The notes beneath the pieces are model-generated. The model was not told the origin of the DNA and searched no databases. It was given only the letters and a program-made list of their open reading frames with translations. A DNA stretch of 39,656 bases from Bdellovibrionota bacterium (GTDB lineage: Bacteria; Bdellovibrionota; UBA1018; CAUJDS01). The stretch lies in the NCBI GenBank assembly GCA_963169695.1, contig CAUJDS010000033.1:1-39656 (forward strand), in the 5' to 3' direction. Position numbers and translations under genes: made by a program. Position 1 is the stretch's first letter. Each line of letters opens with the position of its first letter. Shown here in pieces: positions 219 to 28,102 of this stretch.

Positions 219-382
219 TTCTCCCAACCCCTTCGAGTCATCGAGCTAACATCTTTGATTCAGAAAGACAATTGCCATGAAGGCACAGCCACCCGTCCAC
301 TAACTTTACAACACCTGACTAATGTTTAGACAGGGGTCGATTGGAACAACCTCACGAAAGCACTGAATAAGTGGAATAAACC

Positions 383-401
383 AGCCCGGCACGGGCTTTG
401 C
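383..401 (+). promoter_or_regulatory. Small GC-rich hairpin in the leader of the lipoprotein gene
   Basis: A six-base-pair stem AGCCCG-gca-CGGGCT is followed by TTTGCTTT, about 30 nt before the start codon at 430. The form resembles a weak intrinsic terminator or attenuator. The rest of the 219-429 intergenic region shows no clear promoter to me. No function can be assigned from sequence alone. Confidence 0.25.
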
Positions 402-429
402 TTTAGTTAAGGGCAAGGGAGTTAGGAAA

Positions 430-1050
430 ATGAAATCGAAAATTACTAATTTTGGAGTACTCGCACTTACCATCGTGAGCCTGAATCTCACTGGATGCGG
501 TAATACTTTAGGTGGTGGAAAATCCAAACGCCTTCCAGCCTCAAATCAACAAGCCCTTCAGAATAGTTCGGGTGGTTCCGCTTATCAATGCCCTGCAGGA
601 TTCAATGCAGCCCCTATCGAAGACCCTCTTACCGGAGCTGGCTATTATCAGGTATGTCGCAAAAACGGAACGGCCTCTGAGTTTTCCGTTTGGGGAAACA
701 CCATGACCTCTTCTACCGTCTGCCTATACCCCGCAGAGCGAACGGCCAGCACTGGAGCTTTTAACCTCAAGACCAACCTACAAAACAATACCCCAGTCGT
801 AGAATGTACGGCGCTGCTAGGGTACGAGAATCCCGTCCCTACCCCTGATCACGTCTCTAGCAGCCTTTTTCCTTACGCCAATTTCACTCATTTCTTTGTG
901 ATCGAATCCGCCTATGTTGCCGGCTTTGAGCGTTGCATGGGCTATCGCGATCGCTGGGGTCAGCCTGCAGATCCGTCACTATGCCCAAGCCCTTATCGAA
1001 ACAGCGGAATCATGTCGTTGGTTGATTTGACTCAGCTCTTAAATCAATAG
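430..1050 (+). CDS. Cysteine-containing outer-membrane/periplasmic lipoprotein, unknown function
   Basis: This 206-residue protein is a lipoprotein. It has a short basic N-terminus, a hydrophobic core and a lipobox LTGC with the lipidated Cys near residue 23, followed by Gly-Asn, so outer-membrane sorting is likely. The mature part starts with a Gly/Ser/Asn-rich linker and holds several further cysteines (YQCPAGF, YQVCRKNG, VCLYP, VECTALLG, ERCMGYR, SLCPSP), an even number compatible with disulfides in the periplasm. No family is recognised. The start is supported by AGGGAG/TTAGG just upstream. It ends 4 bp from the end of the convergent gene at 1055. Confidence 0.8.
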   Translation: MKSKITNFGVLALTIVSLNLTGCGNTLGGGKSKRLPASNQQALQNSSGGSAYQCPAGFNAAPIEDPLTGAGYYQVCRKNGTASEFSVWGNTMTSSTVCLYPAERTASTGAFNLKTNLQNNTPVVECTALLGYENPVPTPDHVSSSLFPYANFTHFFVIESAYVAGFERCMGYRDRWGQPADPSLCPSPYRNSGIMSLVDLTQLLNQ

Positions 1051-17055: not shown

Positions 17056-18309
17056 TTAGAAGTTCACGCTCATCAAAGCCTGAACCGTATAGAAGCTCGA
17101 ATATCCCAACTGACTAGCAACGCGTTGCTTGTCAGCATTCGCTAAGTTGTTCGCGAAATAAGAGTTGCGATACCCATTGAATCGACCGTAGCCATAACTC
17201 GATCCATAATTGGAATAATAGGCTTCTGGATAGATCGCTCCATCTTCATTCGTAGAAATCGGTAAGTAGTACTTGCCTTGCACACCAAAAGAGATGGTCT
17301 TGCTCAATGTAAGGTCTACTCCGGCTCCAATGACGCCAGAAACTGCCGTGAGCTTGTAATCGTCTCCGCCGTTTGGATTGTATTGCCTCAAGTAATCCTT
17401 CAACTGTTCATCGTAATTGATGAAGCTTCGAGAGTAGGCCATACCACCTGTAATATAGGGTCGGACCTTTGATCCCTTCGAAGTAATTGCCACCCGCATG
17501 CTCAACTCAAACACGTTTTGATTCATGTTCAAAGTGCTGCGGTTATTGCCGTTTTGACCATTGTTTCCATAGATGTTCTGGTTCAAATAATTATAGTAAT
17601 TATTGAAACCATAGGCACTTCCAGCACCATAACCATAGGCACCCGAAACCGGCGCATTCACTCCATACATATTGTAGGAGTAGCCAAGGTCAAGCGACAC
17701 ATGAGAGGTAAAATCCAGTCCAAGCTCGACGCCAACGGATCCCTTCGAATTTACTTTAAAGGGACCATCGTCCATCATAAAAGCCATTCCGCCCTTGGGT
17801 CGCAAGGAAACCGACATTCCAGATTCTTGCTCATCCGATGCCGATTCTGATTTCACTGTATTGGATGAAGCTTCAACGACCGGAACCGCCTGATGGCCTT
17901 GAGGCGCGGGGACGGAGGCTTCTGAAACTCCCATTGGGTTGGTAGAATTCACGATATGCTTGGTGCGTTCCATCTCTTGCTCGAGTCGCAATTGCTCAAT
18001 ACGAGTTTGAAGAAGGTCTTCATTCTTCAACTCCTGCATCAGCCGCTCGCGGCGAATGATTTCGGATGAAGAAACGGGCTTCTCCTGAGCGATTGGAGCG
18101 GGTGCAACTAGCGCATTAGTGGGTGACGACTGGCTCGTATTGGTTGCGTTGACCGTAATAGACTTATTGACCGTTACGGTTGGATTGTTTCCAAGAACCG
18201 CACCTTCCTCAGCATGAACATTTCTGCTGTCGATCATAAATACCAACGAACCCACCATGAGTCCGAAAGCGATTCCTTTGGCTAATCGATTGGTTTTCTG
18301 ATTTTTCAT
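17056..18309 (-). CDS. Outer-membrane beta-barrel protein with N-terminal coiled coil
   Basis: The 417-residue protein has a signal peptide (basic start, hydrophobic core, VHA|EEG), a Ser/Thr/Pro-rich linker and a short coiled coil (about 80-115, RERLMQELKNEDLLQTRIEQL). From about residue 170 it forms a barrel of OmpA/OmpW size: alternating strands such as GVELGLDFTSHVSLDLGYSY, ISFGVQGKYYLPI and a final VQALMSVNF ending in Phe for BAM recognition. Two extended Gly/Tyr/Asn-rich loops (for example GYGAGSAYGFNNYYNYLNQ) look surface-exposed. No exact family is assigned. The start overlaps the end of the preceding gene as ATGA, so both are translationally coupled. Confidence 0.8.
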   Translation of the reverse strand: MKNQKTNRLAKGIAFGLMVGSLVFMIDSRNVHAEEGAVLGNNPTVTVNKSITVNATNTSQSSPTNALVAPAPIAQEKPVSSSEIIRRERLMQELKNEDLLQTRIEQLRLEQEMERTKHIVNSTNPMGVSEASVPAPQGHQAVPVVEASSNTVKSESASDEQESGMSVSLRPKGGMAFMMDDGPFKVNSKGSVGVELGLDFTSHVSLDLGYSYNMYGVNAPVSGAYGYGAGSAYGFNNYYNYLNQNIYGNNGQNGNNRSTLNMNQNVFELSMRVAITSKGSKVRPYITGGMAYSRSFINYDEQLKDYLRQYNPNGGDDYKLTAVSGVIGAGVDLTLSKTISFGVQGKYYLPISTNEDGAIYPEAYYSNYGSSYGYGRFNGYRNSYFANNLANADKQRVASQLGYSSFYTVQALMSVNF

Positions 18310-19241: not shown

Positions 19242-19278
19242 GTGACTAAACTTTGGTCACTAGGCGTTAGAAACCTAG
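19242..19278. promoter_or_regulatory. Two adjacent dyads, possible upstream activator sites for the sigma-54 promoter
   Basis: GTGAC-N9-GTCAC (19242-19260) and CTAGG-N9-CCTAG (19260-19278) have the same 5-9-5 geometry and share one base. They are centred about 90-110 bp upstream of the predicted start at 19360, a usual distance for enhancer-binding proteins of sigma-54 promoters. Binding is inference. Confidence 0.35.
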
Positions 19279-19333
19279 ACAGAGAAAATATCTTAAACGA
19301 TTGGAATGACTGACTTTATTTTTTTATTGGCAT

Positions 19334-19349
19334 TGGCACTCGGCTTGCT
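19334..19349 (+). promoter_or_regulatory. Sigma-54 (RpoN) -24/-12 promoter
   Basis: TGGCAC-N5-TTGCT matches the sigma-54 consensus TGGCAC-N5-TTGCA at all positions but the last. The invariant GG (19335-19336) and GC (19347-19348) are exactly 10 bp apart. Transcription would start near 19360, only about 6 nt before a perfect 19-bp hairpin. Confidence 0.7.
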
Positions 19350-19359
19350 TTATAAGAGT

Positions 19360-19445
19360 GCACATACAGACGGTTTAGCTAACTACCCCTAAACCCTAAC
19401 CCCCCTTTCAGTCCCCCTAAGTTAGCTAAACCGTCTGTTTTATCT
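19360..19445 (+). ncRNA. Candidate small RNA: 19-bp hairpin with C-rich loop and U tail
   Basis: The predicted transcript of about 85 nt from the sigma-54 promoter is nearly all one structure. Arms 19366-19384 and 19420-19438 are perfectly complementary over 19 bp, and CTGTTTTATCTT follows, as in an intrinsic terminator. The 35-nt loop is pyrimidine-rich, with C runs ACCCC, CCC, ACCCCCC and CCCCC. Such loops in known sRNAs (for example RsaE-type UCCC loops) pair with G-rich ribosome-binding sites, so an anti-Shine-Dalgarno role is possible. No protein start follows within 200 nt, so this is not simply a gene leader. A plain terminator is unlikely because no gene reads into it from the left on this strand. 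Confidence 0.55.
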
Positions 19446-19653
19446 TAGAAAAATTCAATCAAGCATCCTTCTGAAAAAATTCAAAAAAGTTCAAATCCAA
19501 TGGCTTCTCAGTTCCCCTAATGACCTTATTGCGAAGCTAAGCTTCAAAGGCAGTCAGAAAACCGCAGTCAATCTGGACACATTACTAGTCGCGTCAAATT
19601 TCATTACAATTTAGCTAAACAGTTGGCGGATGGTTGTCGGGGATATCTTCACT
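19446..19653 (+). other. Non-coding leader of the DUF1592-type gene with a repeated TTTAGCTAAA palindrome
   Basis: I find no gene in this stretch. TTTAGCTAAA at 19610-19619 is a 10-bp palindrome. Nine of its bases recur in each arm of the hairpin upstream (TTTAGCTAA at 19374-19382, TTAGCTAAA at 19422-19430). It could be a protein-binding site shared by the two transcription units. Confidence 0.3.
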
Positions 19654-21414
19654 ATGATTCACTTAAGATTGTCACTTCAGGTCACGACATTTCTCGGAAT
19701 GACGTCCTTACTTGCAGGGTGCTTTTCAACATCCCTAGAGTGGATTTCTCCTGAGGAAATGTTGAGACGTCAGGAGGACGCACTTCGTTTTAAATTTTCT
19801 TGCGATCCTTCGGCTCGCCCCAGTGGTAATTTTTTGAAACGACTGACCCGAGAGGAACTACTAGCCACCCTTCACCGAACCATCAACGATTACCTTGGCT
19901 CAGAAGCCAGCGCTGTACTGACTTCCATTCAAAGCGAGGAAAGCCTTCTTCCAGGCGACAGTGCCGCTGCGATCCAATTGTTTCGTTCCAGCAATAAGAA
20001 CATGACTGACCTCGCAGATCCACTCACGCGCTTAGCAATAAAACTAGCTGATCAGGTCACTGCCAGTAGTTCGCGAATCAGCTTATTTTTTGGTTCTTGT
20101 GCTAACTCCAGTCCCCTCTCTTCAACCTGCTTTCAGCAATCAGTAGTGAATCGCGTTGCCCGTAGATTTTTTCGAAGACCCCCAAGTACTGAGGAAGTTC
20201 AAAGGATTCAGGCGCTTTATAATTCGGACGCTTCCAATGGGTTACGAAACTTAATGATCTATTTTGCGCTATCTCCGGCATTTGTTTTTCACGACTACCT
20301 TGGGGGCACGGAAATAGAACACAAAATTCTCCAGATGACACCATATGAGCGAGTTTCGCGCGCGTCATTCTTCTTTCTCGGAGAAGGTCCAGATGATGGG
20401 CTCCTGGAGAGAGTGCGCCTTGGGCAGGTGACGAACGACAGTCAATATGCAACTCTCGTCTCAAGCCTCTTCAATTCCAGTCCCTATCAGACTCGCTTGC
20501 GCTCCCACTTCTTGTCCTTTTTCAGGCAATGGTTGCGATATGAGGATAAAGCCGTTGCATCAGGCAGACTACAGGATCCTAAATACCAGGCGACTTTTAA
20601 TGGGCTTCAAGTTGACCAGAATTTTGTCAACGCAGCCAAAACAGAGCTCGATCAGCTTTTTACTTACCACGTGTTTTATCGTCCAGGCAGCTCTTTTGAG
20701 GATCTCTTCTCCAGCCGAACGGTACTTACTCAGAATGCAACGCTTGCTAATGCCTACGGCGTTTCGCCATGGAACGGGAACTATACGGGAACACTCCCCA
20801 CAGTTGCTGAAACTCGGGGGTTTCTTGCACGTACCGCAGTCCTTTATCATGGCAATGAAAACCGACATTTCTTTCCTGATGGTCATCACTTGCGGCGAGA
20901 TATCCTCTGCACCCCTTTGAGTCCTCCCCCCGCCGCCGCAGCTGGCATAGACCCACCGGAAGCGACGGGACTTGAAAGTACAAGAGAAGCAAGCGAGAAT
21001 CTCACCTCCTCCAATTCTTGCATTGGCTGTCACAGTCAGATGGCGATGTCCTTTGCATCTAATAACTTTGACGCAATTGGAAGATTTCGAACAACGGAAG
21101 ACATCTATGACCACACAGGAAGGTTTATTGCGAGCGTTGGGTTGGATAGCCAAGTGACTCCTCGCATTCATCCAAAGGACCGTGCAACCTATGAGGGAAT
21201 GGACGGTCTCTTTGCTGCGGTTCGAAAAACCGATCAACATGAGGCATGCTTCGTGCGGCAACTCTATCGCGATGCCTTCTGGAAGCTCGAAGACTTAAGG
21301 TTGGAGGGCTGTTCACTGAGAACATGGATGGATACCCTTAAAACTCAAGGCATCCTCGAAACCTATAAGGGAATTGCACTTGACCCACGATTCTCGCGGT
21401 ATATTGCAGATTAG
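19654..21414 (+). CDS. Lipoprotein of the DUF1592/DUF1588 family with one heme-c motif
   Basis: The 586-residue protein is a lipoprotein (MIHLRLSLQVTTFLGMTSLLAGC, lipobox LLAGC). It shows in order the blocks of the DUF1587-1592-1588-1585 group common in Planctomycetes and Myxococcota: LTREELLATLHRTINDYLG, RRFFRRPPSTEEVQRIQALY, MTPYERVSRASFFFLGEGPDD, then RRDILCTPLSPPPAAA and CIGCHSQM, and a C-terminal ACFVRQLYRDAFWK. CIGCH is a CxxCH heme-c attachment site. The biochemical role of this family is not established; many members are predicted surface or periplasmic oxidoreductases. I chose the ATG at 19654 because it gives a proper lipoprotein signal; an ATG at 19630 is in frame. No DUF1552 partner lies next to it. 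Confidence 0.85.
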   Translation: MIHLRLSLQVTTFLGMTSLLAGCFSTSLEWISPEEMLRRQEDALRFKFSCDPSARPSGNFLKRLTREELLATLHRTINDYLGSEASAVLTSIQSEESLLPGDSAAAIQLFRSSNKNMTDLADPLTRLAIKLADQVTASSSRISLFFGSCANSSPLSSTCFQQSVVNRVARRFFRRPPSTEEVQRIQALYNSDASNGLRNLMIYFALSPAFVFHDYLGGTEIEHKILQMTPYERVSRASFFFLGEGPDDGLLERVRLGQVTNDSQYATLVSSLFNSSPYQTRLRSHFLSFFRQWLRYEDKAVASGRLQDPKYQATFNGLQVDQNFVNAAKTELDQLFTYHVFYRPGSSFEDLFSSRTVLTQNATLANAYGVSPWNGNYTGTLPTVAETRGFLARTAVLYHGNENRHFFPDGHHLRRDILCTPLSPPPAAAAGIDPPEATGLESTREASENLTSSNSCIGCHSQMAMSFASNNFDAIGRFRTTEDIYDHTGRFIASVGLDSQVTPRIHPKDRATYEGMDGLFAAVRKTDQHEACFVRQLYRDAFWKLEDLRLEGCSLRTWMDTLKTQGILETYKGIALDPRFSRYIAD

Positions 21415-27858: not shown

Positions 27859-28009
27859 TAATAGTACAGTCGCAGTTTGGGTTCCGGCCTAGGTTTAATA
27901 AGGTACGTGAGAGGGTGGTTCATGGTCGGCAAAACAAGTTTCAGCAAAAAGACAGAGAGTTCGGCCCTGATGGAACAGGGTCAGGAAGAGGTGGGCTTCT
28001 TGCCCTCTT

Positions 28010-28102
28010 TGAAAAAGGCAAGTCAGTCGAAAGGCTGAACGCGCAAAGCTCCAGTGCTACGGACTGTGACCCCGACAGTTCACGCAGGCTGAGCTACCAA
28101 AG
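28010..28102 (+). promoter_or_regulatory. Cyclic-di-GMP-I (GEMM-I) riboswitch aptamer
   Basis: The conserved blocks are in order. AAAAAGGCAA is followed by a hairpin capped by a GAAA tetraloop (CAGTC-GAAA-GGCTG), then CGCAAAGC, GTGCTACGG, a 7-bp hairpin (GGACTGT with ACAGTTC), and the closing CAGGCTGAGCTACC. The GAAA loop and its receptor, the CGCAAAGC joint and the final TACC agree with the Vibrio cholerae Vc2 aptamer type. The helix GCTC/GAGC and CAG/CTG closes the second arm. It binds c-di-GMP by family; binding here is untested. Confidence 0.85.

Follow-up and report, generated by a model that had tools for sequence, protein, structure and literature searches.

The described RNA nearest to the one studied here, in control and loop taken together, is Pxr of Myxococcus xanthus and its relatives, a short structured sRNA with a predicted sigma-54 promoter, an upstream enhancer and a first loop bearing a run of C (published primer/probe ...GGTTCCCCCC and CCCCCCACCCCTTCAGC...), where one C-to-A change abolishes function (PMC5684412, PMC5568312). 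In loop mechanism, the closest is 6C/B11 of Actinobacteria (mycobacteria), whose two stem-held C-rich loops were shown to pair with the G tracts of ribosome-binding sites (RBSs) and which is not described as sigma-54 dependent in that report (PMC10470900). In control, the nearest are GlmY of Enterobacteriaceae and a group of Desulfovibrio ncRNAs. GlmY is a sigma-54-dependent sRNA with a tie to the cell envelope and TGTC...GACA sites upstream, for which the QseF/GlrR consensus is TGTC-N10-GACA (PMC8745638); according to the part of the source drawn on here, it acts via RapZ (PMC7073468). In Desulfovibrio vulgaris, the DVU0653, DVU0679, DVU1419 and DVU2359 regulons place ncRNAs under enhancer-binding proteins (PMC4641369, PMC3333781), and the DVU1419 regulon comprises envelope stress genes together with an ncRNA (PMC4641369); in the parts of these papers drawn on here no C-tract loop is described, and the likeness drawn here is one of control.

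We analysed a 39,656-nucleotide stretch of DNA from a Bdellovibrionota bacterium (the window), in which an earlier note had proposed a near-consensus -24/-12 box followed, about 6 nt after the transcript start, by a hairpin with a C-rich loop. The box turned out to be perfect, with 0 mismatches to the sigma-54 consensus TTGGCAC-N5-TTGCT and correct spacing of the -24 GG and -12 GC, while the five other matches in the window carry two mismatches each (chance expectation 3.8 at up to two mismatches). The C of the -12 GC is base 19348, and a direct count of 12 bases onward places the predicted +1 at 19360, and the inverted repeat indeed begins 6 nt further on; the proposed 19-bp perfect repeat, 35-nt loop of C runs including C6 and C5, and U-rich tail were exact to the base. 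The locus is present in a single copy in the genome, which encodes one rpoN (PF04552, E 1.7e-64). Rfam searches of the window and its relatives at gathering and permissive levels returned nothing relevant to the hairpin RNA. Promoter, hairpin and conservation are well supported by the sequence comparisons, and we conclude that the hairpin very probably represents an sRNA gene. The coordinates of all features are collected in the table.

Table. Features of the predicted sRNA locus and of related sites in the window
Feature	Coordinates	Strand	Basis or remark
UAS-like TGACTAATGTTTAGACA (316-332) and sigma-54-like box CCGGCACGGGCTTTGCT (386-402)	316..402	+	before lipoprotein gene 430-1050 (+)
Outer-membrane beta-barrel-like protein F6	17056..18309	-	orthologues diverge next to type A sRNA in relatives
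Palindrome TGACTAAACTTTGGTCA, possible UAS	19243..19259	.	6/8, 2 mismatches to TGTCNAANNNTTNGACA; position and analogy with relatives
CGTTAGAAACCTAGACA, degenerate UAS, about -95 to -79 from predicted start	19265..19281	.	relatives have a well-conserved TGTC-N9-GACA here
Sigma-54 -24/-12 promoter TTGGCACTCGGCTTGCT	19333..19349	+	0 mismatches; GGCA and TGC invariant in 21/21 type A members
Predicted sRNA: 6-nt leader, hairpin, U-rich tail	19360..19447	+	start by rule; 3' end a guess
Stem 5' arm, 19 bp	19366..19384	+	fold, inverted repeat, covariation
35-nt loop, C tracts 19386-19389, 19394-19396, 19400-19405, 19413-19417	19385..19419	+	sequence
Stem 3' arm	19420..19438	+	fold, inverted repeat, covariation
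Weak terminator-like tail TTTTATCTT, short, U-rich	19439..19447	+	sequence; several relatives have CCCCC here instead

The stem arms pair without a mismatch, and the MFE of the window RNA is -28.7 kcal/mol compared with -7.4 ± 2.4 in shuffles (z = -9.0). The loop ACCCCTAAACCCTAACCCCCCTTTCAGTCCCCCTA contains C4, C3, C6 and C5 tracts and consists of 54% C with one G. The same design, one long stem with a C-tract loop, recurs in relatives and is hereafter called type A. Covariation was counted after the 21 type A members had been aligned with MAFFT, ignoring structure. Two-sided changes were found in 17 of the 18 stem pairs and amounted to 51 cells, compared with 12.1 ± 3.5 in shuffles (0/500). 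Pairing reached 93.7% in the type A structure but only 21-42% in slid structures (41-42% when the partner was shifted by one column). GU/UG wobbles outnumber AC/CA combinations in the stem by 21 cells to 6, which favours an RNA made from the plus strand (nominal p=0.006; the sequences are related and not independent). Type A loops are 24-40 nt long, consist of 48-63% C and contain 0-3 G; the number of C tracts ranges from two to four, most commonly three of about five C. The stem is followed by UUCCCCC, without a U tract, in several type A loci, e.g. L069, L072, L079 and L081. The search for the stem-loop in relatives that the earlier note had suggested thus revealed compensatory changes and a conserved C-tract loop, which supports its view that the transcript would be almost only stem and loop.

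Relatives were sought with a loose order-wide pattern, promoter followed by two C tracts, which matched 22 of the 55 genomes of the order (reversed-pattern control 0), and most of the matches sorted into two forms, type A and type B. In type B, a C-tract loop sits on a short stem (AGTGCC...GGCACT), and a GC-rich hairpin follows that again carries a C-tract loop and ends in a U tail. At E<1e-6, covariance models trained on 6 type A and 12 type B sequences detected the former in 21 genomes and the latter in 17, with one genome containing both; 15 and 5 of these genomes, respectively, were independent finds, and the two types together occur in 37 of the 58 genomes of the class. Model R2 used an RNAalifold structure that pairs promoter bases and served for member finding only. 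At the type B locus L032 (G035), a third C-loop hairpin, GGCCTGAGCTTCCCCCGGCTCAGGCC, follows the terminator hairpin. Across the phylum, 41 of 291 Bdellovibrionota genomes matched (control 0), many of them in the family of Bdellovibrionaceae ACE_BDE1 (G566). The form there, type C, begins with a C tract at the 5' end, followed by a C-loop hairpin with a U9 tail; it occurs in Bdellovibrionaceae and other families of Bdellovibrionota. Types B and C each have two C-rich stretches and hairpins with strong U tails, and in all three types a sigma-54 promoter precedes the hairpin. Among named genomes, a scan yielded 52 loci, and similar sigma-54 and C-tract hairpins appeared in some deltaproteobacterial, Desulfobacterota, Nitrospirota and other contigs; the matches in Roseateles, Planctomycetes and Kofleriaceae (L126) lack the hairpin design and are probably unrelated.

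Many of the conserved promoters share an upstream palindrome. Of 38 type A and B promoters, 28 are preceded by TGTC-N9-GACA at a match of at least 7/8, compared with 3.4 in shuffles, and enrichment is confined to spacing 9, spacing 10 being at background. In type A it precedes the promoter by about 67 bp, frequently accompanied by another copy near -160; in the type B genus g6 the distance is about 90 bp. Many type C loci have it at the same distance; spacing 7 is also above background there, possibly reflecting close kinship. A single enhancer-binding protein presumably recognises TGTC-N9-GACA. Upstream of the window's sRNA the sites are degenerate (6/8), whereas relatives have a strong match. 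With promoter and palindrome conserved in relatives and rpoN in the genome, the sigma-54 control suggested by the earlier note is supported.

Searching whole genomes for exact TGTCNAANNNTTNGACA gave matches in 23 of the 25 genomes tested (reversed control 0). At 20 other TGTC-N9-GACA loci, a sigma-54 promoter follows 40-160 bp downstream in 12, compared with 3% of random positions, and the ORFs behind these loci have, as judged by eye, nearly all exported-looking N termini. The 'specific signal or life stage' anticipated in the earlier note can be given the narrower form of a regulon in which exported proteins abound. The window itself contains a clearer copy of the site than those at the sRNA, with a sigma-54-like box about 54 bp downstream, and from this arrangement the lipoprotein gene at 430-1050 is a probable second member of the sRNA's regulon. 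Among the order genomes, L010, L022 and L029 have a sigma-54 box directly 5' of a conserved protein gene (MSA...). No GAFTGA-type ORF was found beside the sRNA, in the window or in the UAS regions examined; one such ORF lies elsewhere in the genome (L244) and was not linked to the sRNA.

The neighbourhood of type A loci is conserved as well, with purB on one flank and, on the other, genes for an outer-membrane protein (OMP) beta-barrel (F6), a FadB-like protein and an FtsX-like permease. The F6 gene of the window lies one gene away from the sRNA, and a DUF1592/DUF1588 gene is interposed downstream; PF13505 is detected in the G022 orthologue of F6, and the window copy has no Pfam match. About two thirds of type A loci have an opposite-strand sigma-54-like box facing away from the sRNA, many of them preceding the OMP gene; this divergent OMP promoter was not found in the window. 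A short Flp/Tad pilin-like ORF (GQATTEYIL...) often converges on the type A hairpin, e.g. at L067, L069 and L072, and none was seen there in the window. Type B loci have two other conserved neighbourhoods, distinct from that of type A. Elsewhere in the window, a c-di-GMP-I riboswitch (28007-28101, plus strand, Rfam 56.7 bits) is flanked by two long ORFs that are both on the minus strand, and it may form a riboswitch RNA that stands alone, like the merRNA of Bdellovibrio.

Our working model is that an enhancer-binding protein at TGTC-N9-GACA-type sites would activate the promoter at 19333-19349, from which RNA polymerase starting at 19360 would produce a transcript of about 85-90 nt folded into a single hairpin. 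The rigid 19-bp stem would keep the loop with its C3-C6 tracts unpaired, and the RNA would act in trans, its C tracts pairing with G-rich RBSs (AGGGGG-like) and blocking translation. The same activator would switch on the RNA together with exported-protein genes, while the RNA would repress other genes with G-rich RBSs and so form the non-coding, repressive branch of a response remodelling the envelope or surface. The RNA is probably such a branch, because exported and outer-membrane protein genes have the same enhancer site. As a whole, the model of a sigma-54-activated trans-acting sRNA of an envelope regulon, with C tracts directed at G-rich RBSs, is in our judgement the likely explanation, and for the RBS-pairing mechanism taken by itself our preference is slight. 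Precedents for it are the C-rich loops of 6C/B11 that pair with RBSs (PMC10470900) and Pxr, which may work likewise and is inactivated by a C-to-A change in the loop (PMC5684412).

Potential partners are present, and the capture of G-rich RBSs that the earlier note proposed is plausible. In a 440-kb genome sample with 332 genes, GGGGG occurs 19 times at positions -20 to -1 of start codons compared with about one per 10-nt bin elsewhere, and CCCCC has no peak upstream of start codons. A G-rich peak before start codons is expected in any genome from Shine-Dalgarno sequences, and the GGGGG peak therefore shows only that partners exist. Predicted duplexes at -18 kcal/mol or below were modestly more frequent in Shine-Dalgarno regions (36) than in gene interiors (22). 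The adjacent OMP gene was considered as a direct RBS target; the neighbouring OMP leaders contain no G5 tract, which leaves this obvious local target unsupported.

The main competitor of RBS pairing is that the C loop titrates an RNA-binding protein (e.g. Rho, a cold-shock protein or another C-binder) with no mRNA pairing, so that abundance of the RNA after sigma-54 activation would alter the activity of that protein. The variable spacing and number of the C tracts (two to four), together with the retained C-richness and G-poverty, fit a binding platform better than a fixed seed. However, the C-rich loops of 6C/B11 work by base pairing (PMC10470900) and no candidate protein was found; we consider titration rather unlikely.

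Far less probable is a leader or attenuator role, in which the promoter would drive the DUF1592/DUF1588 gene (19630-21414) and the hairpin would act as a regulated terminator within the 5' leader of that gene. The gene has the same orientation, beginning about 180 nt past the tail, and a weak U tract follows the hairpin, but an attenuator has no need of the C-rich loop, which is conserved. Most of the type A relatives examined have no co-oriented protein gene behind the hairpin, purB and a pilin-like gene being on the other strand, which disfavours a leader function; a leader of the downstream gene was rejected on this synteny. We give equally little credence to an unexpressed DNA element, in which the inverted repeat would be a palindrome bound by a protein, the end of a transposon or a cruciform site. 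Constraints on DNA could also yield a perfect inverted repeat with paired changes, yet the element is single copy, all members have a sigma-54 promoter close upstream, the GU wobble asymmetry points to a plus-strand RNA, and the hairpins of types B and C bear strong U tails. A bidirectional terminator or transposon end was rejected on the single copy, the plus-strand wobble bias and the missing U tract in several relatives.

A trans-acting sRNA of this kind shares features with each of the described systems. Like Pxr, the window RNA has a predicted sigma-54 promoter, a short structured body and a C run in its loop; many type A and B loci in relatives also have an upstream site, and the window's own is degenerate (6/8). 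Pxr has three (or two long) stem-loops and the window RNA one, and pxr lies next to and downstream of the sigma-54 activator gene nla19, whereas no GAFTGA-type activator ORF was found in the window. The closest-looking form to Pxr here is type B, with its C-loop hairpin followed by a terminator hairpin. 6C/B11 comes from another phylum and has two C-rich loops where the window RNA has one. The 6C family is included in Rfam, and the window RNA did not match it at gathering or permissive level. GlmY is built differently from the window RNA, and the palindrome spacing is N10 for QseF/GlrR and N9 here. Because the window RNA lacks defining features of each of these systems, we assign it to a family of its own, even though its mode of action may be alike. 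It would be a new family of a known kind, set apart from Pxr by the latter's published description, sequence homology between the two not being established. No description of the window RNA was found in Rfam or in the open-access literature searched. The earlier note knew of no described RNA with exactly this design; this needs correcting, as related designs do exist in the C-rich, RBS-directed loops of 6C/B11 and in the sigma-54 promoter and first-loop C run of Pxr.

The published sRNA list of B. bacteriovorus comprises eight attack-phase RNAs identified by RNA-seq, and growth-phase RNAs could not be placed in it (PMC3627812). For the family described here, the promoter, the activator site and a set of co-regulated genes can be predicted, and it extends to Bdellovibrionaceae, where genetics is feasible. 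To our knowledge, the direct targets of Pxr are still not known; the family makes it possible to test whether sRNAs with C-tract loops and sigma-54 control, as seen in Pxr, are a general type of regulator. We tentatively entertain the possibility, which we hold to be rather doubtful, that the three types form a single, ancient Bdellovibrionota sRNA class under one enhancer-binding protein, with Pxr and the similar deltaproteobacterial, Desulfobacterota and Nitrospirota hairpins as distant members. If so, Pxr would not be a recent invention of Cystobacterineae. Patterns derived from the Pxr primer/probe found no pxr in 379 Myxococcota genomes, a set that probably included no Myxococcaceae, and the C count at the junction is uncertain. 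At locus L127 (minus strand) of a member of the Desulfobacterales, a sigma-54 promoter and a C-tract hairpin follow about 130 bp after the end of a GAFTGA-type activator gene, which resembles the layout of nla19 and pxr.
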